A stretch of DNA of 64,000 nucleotides from Isoetes taiwanensis (Eukaryota; Streptophyta; Lycopodiopsida; Isoetales; Isoetaceae): NCBI GenBank assembly GCA_021234155.1, contig JAJEKV010000033.1, positions 5,446,635 through 5,510,634 of the forward strand. Direction: 5' to 3'. Below are positions 43,274 to 59,720 of the stretch, in pieces (the stretch's first letter is position 1; the number at the start of each line of letters is the position of its first letter). A program made the position numbers and the translations under genes. The notes under the pieces are model-generated. The model worked only from the letters and a program-made list of their open reading frames with translations, had not been told where the DNA came from and made no database searches.

Positions 43274-43406
43274 TGTGTGTGTGTGTGTGTGAGAGAGAGA
43301 GAGAGAGAGAGAGAGAGAGAGAGAGAGAGAGAGAGAGAGAGAGAGAGAGAGAGAGAGAGAGAGAGAGAGAGAGAGAGAGAGAGAGAGAGAGCGAGAGAGA
43401 GAGAGA
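43274..43406. repeat. Compound TG/GA microsatellite
   Basis: TG run at 43274-43290 passing directly into a GA run to 43406. The GA side joins the 3' end of the first beta LINE. Confidence 0.95.
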
Positions 43407-46400
43407 AGCGAGTATTATGTCCATGGGAGGCCTCAAAGACCTAGTAGACAAATATCTTACATTTATACATCATCATAGAATAATAGATGTGTTTCCGAAT
43501 CCTCATCTAGCTCGTCACTCTCACTCACATTATCAGAAACATCCATGCCCCTTACATGATGTCTATTTAAGCAAGACTCCCTAACCCTCAGGAGTTCTAT
43601 CACATACTTACCTAGCCCCTCTCCATCCATTGTAGAGAAAAAGGTTGGGAGATCCTCATATTGAATTCCATACTCCAACCTCAATGATTTATAAGTTAAG
43701 CATTTGAGCAATACATGATCCTCATCCTCCACCTGATCCATGTCACATAGCTTGCAATATCTTTGATCCCTCGGAATGATATATCCCCATCTCCCCACTT
43801 CTACCCCCAAATGGTGAGAACTAAGGCTTAATCCCCGCTTATAGCATGCCTTTTCTCAGATGGAAATATTTTCTTTCAAATGCTTTACCATTTCAAGTGT
43901 AGGATTGATATTCTGTTTATATAAAATCATTTTCGTCTTTGGGTGTGACCATACCTTCTTGAGTATTTTCGACGAAATCCATGTCCTTAGATCCTTCTCT
44001 ACTAAGATCACTTCATCCCATGAAATATCCCATTTATTAAGCCATCTCTTCACATCTTGAAATATCCCTTTCTCTTTACTAGCCATCAAAGTTACATGTG
44101 GAAGTCTAGTCTCGTCCATTCGTAGCACCCTCTTCATATACTGAATGCATCTAAATAGTGCTTCCCCTTCAAGAGGCATAAAACCACTCTCAGCCAACAT
44201 CATGGGATAGGGAGTTTGAACCTTCACTCCGAGCTCCAACCTTAGGAATTTCTTTAAAATCTGCTCTATATCTTCCCACAAGCCTTGTGGAAGACTCGGG
44301 CCCCAAACTTCACAACCATACAGGACCACACTCTGAACCAAAGATTGAAACAGCTTTACCTTGAGGTTCCACGACCAAAGGTGAGATCTCCTACACACTT
44401 TGTAAAGCATACAAAGCTTTTTGACCTCCATCCACTCGCTGAGTAATACATGCATTCCATATATGATTTCTGCTAAAAATAAGACCCAGATACTTGTATG
44501 AATCACACATGTTCACCTTTACTCCCTTTGTACCAAAATGTGATCTTGTTTCAAAACACCTACCGTCATGATATTAGTATTTTTTCCAGATTTACCTGCA
44601 TATCGGGGCTTGGTCACAAAAGGTCGCTAGTCCATCCAAGTATCTCTCAGATATGCTCCTTATCACGCCATGATAACTACATCATCCGAGATACAAAACA
44701 TTTGGATAATATATCCGCGGGATTTCTGTCCCCTCAAGTAGCGCTTATCCTCAAGCCATTCCTCCAGCCATCAATAAACAAATTCAAATAGTGTTGGAGA
44801 CAACTGACACCCTTGTTTAAGTCCAACATTACTTCCACGACTTAAAAATATCCACCGAGAACGGATGTGACAATTGTACCAGTATCTTCTCATATAGTAC
44901 CTTCACAAAGATTCTAATATCATGCGACATCCAACCTATTCAATCTCTTCCAAAGTTGGTCCCGAGGTACCTTATCGAAAAGCCTTCTTAAAGTCTACTT
45001 AATGCTACATAGATCGGTTTCTTTGAGCCCTTAACATTATCAAATATTGATTTCAAAGACCAACAAATGATCCAGGGTGGATCTCCCTCGCTTAAAACCC
45101 GGCCAAGGCCTCAAAAATTCTTGTGATTAAGCTCACCTCAGATACTCAGCTTCTTCTCTAAAATTGTGGAAAAGAGTTTTGAAAATAAACTACTTTTACC
45201 ATAATAGTTCTAAGAGTTGTTCACCTCCTTCCTCGATCCTCCCTTAAACACCGAACCACTCGTTTCTACTCCAATCAAGCTGGAATCCCTCGTACCATTG
45301 CCATATTAAACAATTTCGCAAACCAAGGGACGATAACAGACCGCCCATTTTAAATGTTCTCGCACACAAACCATGAAGATCCGATGCTTTGCCATTTGCC
45401 GCTGAAGATATGCCTCGCCGCTACTTCTTCTTCCGTAATTGACACACTAGATTTCAATTTCAAATATTTGCAGCTACATCTTCATTGTAGAGCTTGAGCA
45501 CATGCCGCCATAGATCATGTGCGCTTAAAGGAATATCTTCCCCGCTTATGCCGCTTTTAGACCATTCCAAAAGCTTTTCGATCCTCTACATATCTGTTGC
45601 ATAGAAGTTGTTGCTTCTCTTTAATAAACTGCCTCTTCCTGCTATGCACAATCCGTCTGTACTCTTTCTTAAGATCATCCCTTTGACTTGCTTCACTGAT
45701 TTTTCCAAGCCTCTTTGGCAGCCCCCGCAGTCTCGATCAAACCAGACTTATATGGCAGTCCGCCCTTGCTCGGAGGTGTAAATAAATCCACCGCCGCTTC
45801 TCCGTGATATCATGTAGCCGGTTGTTTAACATCTCCGTGTCACCATCCCATGACAGATTCACAACCTTCGCCGCAACATCGAAATTGAACTTGCAGGTGT
45901 GGTTTTAAGCAGTACTTCCTCTTAACCCCCGGACATGGTATGCTTGGTTGGCTGACTTGCAAATTAAAAAAGAGAGGAACATGGTCGGATTCCAATTCTA
46001 CTTCCCCTATCACGAAATGGGTGATGGTTTCAATCAAGTCTTCCTCGACATTATCGATAATCCACCGCATTCTTTCTCGCAAGTGTTCTTCTCCGGTAGC
46101 GGGAAATCTACTCAATCCATTGCAAATCAAAAGGTTTGCGCTTACCACATAAACTCGTGGTTGCCCCCGCCTGCTTCGCCACCACTTCATCTCAAGGATA
46201 TCCTCTTCCTACCCAAGAACTCCTACTCCTTTTCATCTACGAGATCAGCCAAAGCGGTCCTTCTCTCCCGAAGCAAAGTGGCATGTTGGGTGCCCGCTCT
46301 ACCGTTAAAATCCCCTGTCAGAATCACGCTTCCCTTCTCTTTGAAACTCCATAATGTCTTGTTCTAATGCATAAAATAAATCATCACTTGAAGCATCTGT

Positions 46401-57130: not shown

Positions 57131-57273
57131 GAGAGAGAGAGGGAGGGAGGGAGGAGGGAGGGGGGGAGAGAGAGAGAGAGAGAGAGAGAGAGAGAGAGAG
57201 AGAGAGAGAGAGAGAGAGAGAGAGAGAGAGAGAGAGAGAGAGAGAGAGAGAGAGAGAGAGAGAGAGAGAGAGA
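57131..57273. repeat. GA microsatellite with a GGGA-rich left part
   Basis: Begins GAGAGA, passes through GGGAGGGAGG variants, then a long GA run to 57273. It separates LINE beta copies 5 and 6. Confidence 0.95.
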
Positions 57274-59720
57274 TGAAATGAAATGTTTTATAGATCACGC
57301 CTATGAGACCATCAGGCCTAGAAGACGATATATACAAGTCATTTTTTTGCACATAATTAGAACTCTAATGTACCCTCAATCGGCATCATTAGTCTCACTA
57401 CTCTTTTCTCATATAATTCCAGTATTGTTTATAGTTTCTATTGACACGCTCTCACTTTCATCACCTCTCTATCAAGTATTCATCGAGATAGTTGCAAATC
57501 GACAAGAAAGAAATCATATAAAGAGATCCCTGTAGGAACACCCATCCGCCTCCTTAAATTTTCATATGCAGACGTGTTGAAGAATAAGGTGTGCCTCATC
57601 CTCAAGTACATCAGCTCCACATGTTTTACAGGTACATAAGTTTCGGGGAGATTTCCCATCTACCAACCTCCACTCCCAAGTGATGCGAACTTAATCTTAG
57701 TCTGCACAATAAATGTCTTTTTAAGTAAAAACAACTTTAACAAGAGATGCTGTGCTTCTCCAAGTGCTGGATTAATTTCTTTTTTGTAAAATGTCATTTT
57801 CCTGCCTGCATTAGTGCCAAGCTTTTTCCTCGACATGCGCTGACCCATTCCCCTTTAGCTCATCCTCCTCCTCAAGGCATATCTTCTAGCACCATTCCCC
57901 ACTTTACCCAACCATTTACCCACCCCATTATACCTATCCCTTAAGACTACTCTCAGATTATTGTCCTCGTAGCCTATCAGCATTCATGTCATGGACCTTT
58001 TGCACATATTTGAGCTGCCGAAATAATGCTTCAAATTTTGTAACATCTACATCCCTGCTTCAGCTAATAATATCATATGATACTGGGTTTGCATTTTAAC
58101 CCCTAGTTCCGCTAAGAAATTTCTTTGAATTTTCTCAACTCTTTTCCACATTTCTTGGGAGAGCCGCCCCAAACCTCACATCCGCATAACACAACTCGGG
58201 TCTCTAACCAAGGTTTGATATAACAACTTCTTTCGCCTTCAGCCACAATCCTCAAGCCATTTTCGCATTGCATATAGTGCCTTAATCCCAAGACGTGACG
58301 TTGCCCAACCCGCCTTTGTTCCACCCATAATTGTGGTCCACTATACCCCCAAATATTTATATGTGTCTCAGACCACCTCTTTCTCCTTATATTGAAGTGG
58401 AAGGAAAACTCTTTTTCCAAAATGAGAATTTTAGTCTTATTCAAATTCAATTCGTGATTTTAATAGCCACGAAATTGGCTAATGCCTCCAAGTGTCTCCT
58501 CTCGTGATATCGTGGTGACTTGTTAAAGATAACAATAATATCCGCATATAAGAGTAGAATAAGCAAGTATCCTACAATTGGTCCCTCCACTATGGCCTCT
58601 CTCCACATCTCTAATTGGTCTATATATATTCCAAACAATGCAGGGATAAAGGGCATCCTTGTTTCACCCCCAATATTACCCATTCTCTCTGCTTTTACAA
58701 TTTGTTTAGCTTTGTTATAGACTTACATGTCCTTCTCATATGGTACTGAGCATCAAGATTGAAGCTCCCCTCGGAGTAATTCCCTATGTGGTCCATGTGG
58801 TTCCCAAATGTTCTTTCTTAGCATATCGAAGCTTTAGTAAGATCCACAAAGCAAGCAAAGACCGCTTTTTAGTTTTTCACGCGATTCCGCCAACGCCTCA
58901 TAGTAATTATGAAAGTCTAGTGTAGACTGTTAGGTCTAAAACCCCGCTTTGTCCCGATGTTCGACATTGTGCATCTTTGCCAATCACTTAACTTTATCTC
59001 TATAAGCTTGGCAAATAATTTTGAAAATAGACTCTTACTATGATCATTCTATAGTTGCTTGGGTCGCTTAACGCCTCCTGCTTTATGGATTGGTACTACT
59101 TCATTGACTTGCCATGTGTGAGGGAAACCTTCAACCAACATTCTATTCATCATTTTCGTGGATGGCACCGGGTTACAGCCGACCAGCCCATTTTTATCAT
59201 TTCCGCCATCAACCCAAGTGCATGAGTTGCCTTTACACCAAAAGTGATTTCAGCCCTTCAAATATATCTCGCTTGAAAAAGTGATTATCACCTTATCCTC
59301 ACCGTCCATTTCCTCATGCATCCCGCTTACGTGATATATAGTTTATGCAAATGGTTTAATAAACTATCCACATCTAAAAGACTAATCCTTGTTTTTTGGC
59401 CTTCAACCGTCCAGAATTTTTGGTCAGGATAGCAACAATTACCAAAGGTTTCTCGCTTTCATTTTGGTAGTATGCCCATTTTTCCTTCACTAGTTGTCAA
59501 TATTCTGGACCTTTGCCTTTATCTTCCTCCGGTTGCGCTCTTTAAATTCCAACCTCTTACTTTTACATCTGCGGTCATACCACCTATTACATGGCAATCC
59601 TTTCAATGCACGACTGGGTATAAAGCATTTCGAGCCACCCCAAGTAACATAGAGGTAGCATCGTGTCCAACTCTACTAAGTTCTCATTCTGCAGTCCAGC
59701 TTGCCCAACGCTTTTAATCA
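57274..59720 (-). mobile_element. LINE beta copy 6, 5'-truncated at the duplication junction
   Basis: Minus strand. RT fragment at 58683-58447 (ALFGIYIDQLEMWREAI, then LLLYADIIVIF, where one catalytic Asp of YADD is changed or mis-read) and upstream RT remnants to about 59700. The 3' end is TAGGCC-TGAT-GGTCTCATAGGCGT, then ATTTCATTTCAT and the CT tract. Endonuclease and ORF1 are missing because copy B of the segmental duplication begins directly at about 59721. Confidence 0.8.

Follow-up and report, generated by a model that had tools for sequence, protein, structure and literature searches.

CT microsatellites as probable strand-specific targets of LINEs in Isoetes taiwanensis, with re-use of tracts beside older copies in one-way trains

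A 64,000-nucleotide stretch of the genome of the land plant Isoetes taiwanensis (contig JAJEKV010000033.1, positions 5,446,635 to 5,510,634; here called the window, with positions counted from its first letter) carries a train of long interspersed nuclear elements (LINEs) and CT microsatellites that all point the same way, and we followed these elements through the 1.66 Gb genome to which the window belongs. We put the probability at roughly 84% that (CT)n is a strand-specific insertion target of these plant LINEs, which would also re-use CT lying beside their own copies. On samples, we find CT on both sides of the copies, a fixed orientation, similar trains genome-wide, diverged neighbours within a train, and 5′-truncated copies inside CT, and the specificity is a strong preference rather than an absolute one. 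An initial annotation of the window had proposed that one LINE family targets GA/CT repeats and thereby builds one-way arrays; the targeting and the arrays are supported by the sampled 3′ flanks, the 5′ flanks and the strands of the CT tracts, while the single family has given way to a set of anciently diverged families.

The train of LINEs in the window spans 43291–59727 and consists of six copies, of which four are long (A–D) and two are small 3′ fragments; all six lie on the minus strand, arranged tail to head, as the initial annotation had recognized for about 16 kb. The joints are mostly CT tracts (GA on the plus strand), five of which, 114–152 bp each and two of them interrupted, separate the copies. 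Read along the minus strand, copy D (57274–59727), which has lost its 5′ part to the boundary of a 28 kb duplication and is colinear with B and C in tblastx, is followed by a CT tract (57130–57273) between its tail and the 5′ end of C. Copy C (52455–57129, about 4.7 kb, with endonuclease and reverse transcriptase, by tblastx) has its 3′ tail at the next tract (52341–52454), beyond which lies copy B (about 48222–52340, tblastx), whose open reading frame 1 (ORF1) has its ATG 3 nt behind that tract, most clearly in the duplicate copy (80261–80019). A short (TC)n(AC)n joint, with approximate limits 48191–48221, links the tail of B to fragment 2 (about 47979–48190), a 5′-truncated LINE 3′ end with its stem-loop at 48032; a CT tract (47827–47978) separates it from fragment 1 (47719–47826), likewise a 5′-truncated LINE 3′ end and with CT on both sides. 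CT and then (GT)n (47583–47718) precede copy A (43407–47582, about 4.2 kb, tblastx), and CT and then (CA)n (43291–43406) follow it. That every 3′ end runs into a GA tract abutting the next 5′ end, as had been claimed, is therefore mostly right and fails at the joint of B and fragment 2. Copies A, B and C are colinear across endonuclease and reverse transcriptase, and at the ends of the copies a small stem-loop is followed by A-rich sequence, by a tail like CATTTCATTTC and by CT, A being more degraded. Throughout the 264 kb around and including the window, all pure CT/GA runs of at least 16 bp fall in the array, its duplicate or its extension, a clustering beyond chance.

Domain content identifies these copies as LINEs with two open reading frames, an ORF1 being present upstream both in H, a further LINE lying upstream of D beyond the window, and in D2, the second copy of D in the duplication. 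H, the least damaged of the local copies (ORF1 ATG at 93913), and D2 match the reverse transcriptase domain RVT_1 (PF00078) with E values of 3.5e-33 and 1e-19, and R2 and the human LINE-1 ORF2p are among the PDB sequence matches of H. Upstream of the reverse transcriptase lies an endonuclease of the apurinic/apyrimidinic type (APE; PF03372), above the cut-off in H (E 1.5e-6) and just under it in D2 (E 4.7e-5); a PDB search with the D2 endonuclease piece gave nothing relevant, and matches to zf-RVT were weak and all below the cut-off. Each of the eight pairs of the 3′ stem-loop is kept in 30–32 of the 32 filled rows of the 3′-end alignment (the row of L099, the thirty-third, does not enter the count), and an Rfam search gave no match at the gathering score. 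Several copies are 5′-truncated with intact 3′ ends (loci L010, L040 and L041, and fragments 1 and 2 of the window). At L038, L061, L072 and 89356–89430 we also observed LINE tails that have expanded into short repeats of several kinds, namely (CATTT)n, (CATCT)n, (CTT)n or (CTC)n, which suggests slippage at the 3′ junction.

A tandem arrangement of this kind could in principle be the product of tandem or segmental duplication of one LINE together with its tract, and there is indeed a 28 kb tandem segmental duplication here (unit 31670–59727, aligned over 31670–59685 and repeated at 59728–87636, beyond the window; copies 91.8% identical), as well as 98% identity between fragments 1 and 2 with their tracts, fragment 1 being 98% identical to the end of fragment 2. 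Yet neighbouring long copies share only 42.6–57.7% amino acid identity across matched stretches (values from A, from H and from the second copies of B, C and D, called B2, C2 and D2), so that the long copies entered one by one, and the 28 kb unit takes in the entire array, which makes the array older than the duplication. We therefore regard duplication as a hardly credible origin of the trains: a single tandem duplication as the source of the array is ruled out for the long copies by their divergence and possible for fragments 1 and 2, which, judged by their sequence, could be a local duplication. The initial annotation had named one duplication as the finding that would explain the array away; this is not so for the long copies within the array, and the later duplication of the whole array, which could be real or an unpolished assembly artefact, had been overlooked. 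It also bears on the junction claimed for D, which is absent where the duplication breaks D off at 59727 and present in the second copy, where the LINE runs on to 89269 and ends at a CT tract (89270–89355). The duplicated unit further carries an IDM1-like gene (IDM1_C and TDBD domains), with an open frame in copy 1 (31830–33674) and short broken frames in copy 2.

Farther upstream, a (CCCT)n(CT)n stretch lies behind the 5′ end of H, just after a probable exon end. An open frame at 93992–94366 (minus strand; L013:9992-10000 plus L014:1-366) ends at a splice site resembling GTAAG; (CCCT)n comes next, and after it H. The train may thus sit in an intron of a host gene; a search by reading frames and motifs did not find the remaining exons of the gene to which the exon at 93992–94366 belongs.

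Outside the window, 3′ ends were chosen by one criterion alone, the stem-loop string GTCTCATAGACCTGGTGGTCT, with the flank disregarded; allowing up to two mismatches, it has 692 + 710 = 1402 matches genome-wide, against 1 for a reversed control. Forty 3′ ends were fetched among 100 matches listed, all of them exact (the first 20, then every one of the 10 on C907 and of the 6 on C908, and 4 of the 9 on C919). Within 110 bp, 24 of the 40 have a CT run of at least 12 bp and 31 have one of at least 8 bp, and the longest GA run in these flanks measures 6 bp. A second LINE follows downstream in seven of the 40 (L037, L043, L046, L050, L051, L054 and L062; tblastx at E<1e-3 over the 120 or 400 bp fetched), and in all seven the best match has the same orientation. 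Under the same tblastx settings, background pieces from outside the arrays gave LINE matches in 32 of 492 (95 bp) and 46 of 492 (375 bp), an earlier count with different masking having given 40 and 9 of 492; a CT-type reference was the best match in 7 and 11 of these background pieces as compared with all seven downstream flanks. By eye, L042, L057, L064, L066 and L069 also precede a LINE 3′ end or an ORF1-like start; these five are tallied separately, their sequence support being weak or absent.

For the 5′ side, full-length starts were picked by ORF1 coding sequence only: one ORF1 start string occurs at 13 places, 12 of which were fetched (L064, already known through its CT flank, was omitted), and the thirteenth 5′ end is the one H-type place not seen before, the H-type ORF1 start occurring at just three places genome-wide, two of which are H and L062. 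A CT or CT/CCCT block ends 0–18 bp ahead of the ATG in 13 of 13, with a longest pure CT run of 67–161 bp in 12 and of 11 bp in L091. With CT at 31 of 40 3′ ends and 13 of 13 5′ ends, the outcome that the initial annotation had set against its own claim, most copies elsewhere lying in non-GA DNA, is not what we observe. Beyond the 5′ CT, inspection by eye found a same-strand LINE 3′ end in five cases (L091, L096, L099, L100 and L101, of which a script supports L096 only), a Harbinger-type transposon end in two, one shared repeat in three and other DNA in three. Upstream of the full-length LINEs of L095, L097 and L103, another repeat (..ATGTGCATATGCTCAAAAAATGGATTTGAGGCA..) was seen that has a long CT tract at its end. 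Five 3′ ends were also followed upstream for about 4 kb, which was informative for L107 and L108 and uninformative for L104, L105 and L106; the two full-length starts so reached belong to another family, and L108 has a CT run of 26 bp upstream. Among 5′-truncated copies, L010, L040 and fragment 1 of the window lie between CT tracts, a sample that is biased as a measure of the upstream CT rate, truncated 5′ ends having mostly been found via CT.

One-way trains extend well beyond this locus. CT runs of at least 21 bp that start with T number 5453 genome-wide, at a mean spacing of about 304 kb. Among the first 100 listed, all 39 pairs of successive runs 300–12000 bp apart share their strand, as do 11 of the 19 pairs 12–400 kb apart (this count omits 11 pairs closer than 300 bp and one pair 975 kb apart). 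An AC microsatellite control, not matched for density, comprised 496 runs, and among its first 100 listed there was one pair 0.3–12 kb apart, on the same strand.

LINEs are not alone in adjoining these tracts. Downstream of A the train is continued by a PIF/Harbinger-like transposon (38705–43269, minus strand) with inverted ends TTGGCCACATGC and CATGTGGCCAA, a DDE_Tnp_4 transposase at 41591–42970 (E 3.9e-22) and a CT tract on both sides; the outermost CT tract of the window's train (38592–38698, minus strand) has no LINE inside. We considered whether the flanking repeat ‘E’ is a foldback element that encloses a CT tract, and rejected this: it looks like a Harbinger-like transposon, with both ends bordering CT. 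Genome-wide, the Harbinger left end is followed by CT at 132 + 158 = 290 places and by GA at none, and this transposon, too, seems to be strand-specific to (CT)n. Harbinger-like sequence beside CT was also noted at L040, L053, L055, L061, L071, L073, L077 and L084, and some copies lie head to tail with CT between them. By eye, a tRNA-like short interspersed nuclear element (SINE) adjoins CT tracts or lies between them in L060 and L067, which suggests a non-autonomous element with the same target.

Harbinger-adjoining tracts also show what lies on their far side, and 20 of them were fetched among 100 listed. A LINE lies beyond the CT in five (L075, L076, L080, L085 and L089; tblastx), in the same orientation and on the CT strand in all five, and L072, L079 and L087 also appear filled by eye, with some sequence support for L079 and L087. 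Again by eye, a second Harbinger-type end lies beyond the CT in L071, L073, L077 and L084 and a similar stretch in L086, and the other seven show other DNA. Four of the filled copies (L075, L076 and L085 of the CT type, L080 of a sister type) are 5′-truncated and start within endonuclease or reverse transcriptase directly behind the CT, a position that is difficult to account for if the CT tract did not precede the LINE. The idea in the initial annotation that the LINEs target their own CT tails is thus right in part: own tails are one class, and CT tracts are used generally, beside the Harbinger-like transposon, beside other repeats and in the probable intron.

These observations bear on whether the CT might instead be nothing other than the LINE's own tail, derived from the 3′ end of the RNA or from slippage, with insertion occurring anywhere and trains arising as new copies favour old tails. 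CT does follow directly on the CATTT tail in most sampled copies, other slipped repeats occur in tails, for instance (CTC)n behind H or (CATCT)n at L061, and 1009 CT runs of at least 20 bp open with either of two LINE tail strings matched exactly (425 + 584, against 0 and 5 for the reversed controls), to be set beside the 5453 T-first runs of at least 21 bp. Tails without CT occur, however, the four by-eye tracts between two Harbinger-type ends (L071, L073, L077 and L084) are free of LINEs, and the copies truncated inside tracts that border a Harbinger end upstream (L075, L076, L080 and L085) do not require a LINE-tail origin of their CT, and we judge a pure tail origin very unlikely.

A related lineage in the window serves as an internal control. 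Sister-lineage LINEs G (approximate limits 19600–22870, plus strand) and F (its 3′ part, 15683–16983, minus strand) have the 3′ stem-loop of the array LINEs and a (TATTC)n tail, with no CT tract, and together with six more in the 264 kb region they make up eight sister 3′ ends, of which all eight lack a CT tract. Their tails are TATTC in six and CTTC in two, and the copies lie on both strands; one more weak G-type stem-loop match (-65986), with no such tail, was left out of the eight. This comparison speaks to a further possibility, namely that open chromatin or a recombination hotspot at CT draws unrelated elements to the same places and the endonuclease has no special preference for CT. The strand bias of the Harbinger left end at its 290 places, the SINEs beside CT tracts (L060 and L067) and the sister LINE L080 in a CT tract would all fit such a common attractor, but chromatin alone does not set the strand of insertion and all eight local sister 3′ ends avoid such tracts, so that we consider it unlikely.

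Several observations weigh against strand-specific insertion into (CT)n as we propose it. At the 3′ side, a CT run of at least 8 bp is missing at nine of the 40 ends, L037 and L046 are LINE–LINE joints with no CT between, and (CATTT)n, (CTC)n, (CATCT)n and (CTT)n are seen in the tails too; part of the repeat may therefore have been made during or after insertion. At the 5′ side, L107, a full-length copy reached by walking, abuts a LINE 3′ end and has hardly any CT upstream, L041 is a 5′-truncated copy with no CT at its 5′ side, and the 5′ CT of full-length L064-type copies could belong to the transcript leader and not be target DNA; a target-site duplication is unreadable inside a microsatellite. 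The 39 of 39 same-strand pairs may include arrays that were duplicated later. Heavier masking with E<1e-4 left four of 40 downstream LINEs, four of 20 on the transposon side and one of 13 upstream ends, with best matches all in the same orientation. Lastly, L080, whose CT tract borders a Harbinger end, best matches the sister lineage (79.5% DNA identity to a local copy), which weakens the claim that this lineage is free of CT; L087 probably belongs to it as well, and at L039 CT follows directly on a TATTC tail. CT use is far stronger in the array lineage, and it is perhaps older than the split between array and sister LINEs.

The fixed strand, the CT on both sides and the intact 3′ ends agree with target-primed reverse transcription that starts where the GA strand is nicked, which is the likely route. 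The endonuclease would nick the GA strand, the free GA 3′ end would prime cDNA synthesis on the RNA tail (...CATTTCATTTC), and the sense strand of the new copy would come to lie on the CT strand. TTTC, at the end of the tail, matches the beginning of the repeat, and the tail or a read-through RNA might anneal to the GA primer in this way. Each insertion would split its tract into an upstream and a downstream tract, both usable again, and later insertions, by any family of the group, would enter the CT beside older copies to give same-strand LINE–CT–LINE–CT trains; tracts of about 100 bp on both sides would point to regrowth by slippage. The L064-type full-length copies could hardly accommodate their own promoter, and the CT tract may serve as one. 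It is possible, and we offer it tentatively as something we doubt more than we believe, that (CT)n is a shared, strand-marked niche which several diverged LINE families, tRNA-like SINEs and a Harbinger-like transposon enter in a single orientation, that the upstream CT is also a promoter or 5′ leader for LINEs starting within about 20 bp of the ORF1 ATG, and that trains grow by positive feedback. If this were true, each insertion would provide the next copy with both a primed landing site and a promoter, and CT microsatellites would be spread through the genome.

Two other repeat regions of the window were noted. Degenerate tandem repeats of about 31 bp (AGATTCCCT-type) lie within several larger direct repeats, up to 2.2 kb, at 4574–8277, and a 409 bp tandem duplication (94% identical), made of A-rich 15–31 bp units, occupies 28400–29218.

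Microsatellite-specific LINEs with an APE-type endonuclease are known from animals, namely Waldo and Mino of the R1 clade, Kibi, which inserts in (TC)n, and Koshi of the Tx1 group, and the paper of Kojima and Fujiwara from 2004 is said to be the defining one for such elements. The Isoetes LINEs resemble them in inserting into short repeats and in the type of endonuclease, Kibi being (TC)n-specific, and differ in that they occur in a land plant, with many diverged families per target and same-strand LINE–LINE trains. Zepp LINEs form arrays in green algae. TRAS1 is described as inserting in (TTAGG)n telomeric repeats (PMC2868851). Zepp and TRAS1 share with our elements the insertion in or beside earlier copies or a short tandem repeat, the target here being dispersed (CT)n. 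Togen is (TG)n-specific in fish, and microsatellite-specific HERO families also exist (PMC4640811); they are like our LINEs in the microsatellite target, but their clades carry a restriction-like endonuclease, whereas H has an APE-type Exo_endo_phos domain above the cut-off. For transposable elements of plants and of humans, microsatellites have been discussed as landing pads (Kejnovsky 2013, cited in PMC12477314), and the likeness extends to elements beside microsatellites, plants included; as cited there, landing pads are a surround effect involving various elements, whereas here one LINE group has CT at 13 of 13 sampled full-length 5′ ends and a fixed strand. A plant L1 lineage has a conserved 3′ stem-loop, as do the Isoetes LINEs, and poly(A) ends, in place of which the Isoetes LINEs have CATTT or TATTC repeats (PMC3747384). 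In the open-access literature we found no plant LINE with a microsatellite target of such a kind.

The Isoetes elements would be a plant case of dinucleotide-repeat targeting by LINEs, in which targeting of the repeat and re-use of the tracts beside older copies would build one-way trains without tandem duplication. With more than 1000 closely related 3′ ends in one genome, target choice, 5′ junctions and microsatellite growth could be compared across families, and the related lineage with the same 3′ stem-loop and mostly other sites would provide a comparison set. A plant endonuclease that chooses its strand and has a repeat as its target would be useful for studies of target recognition.

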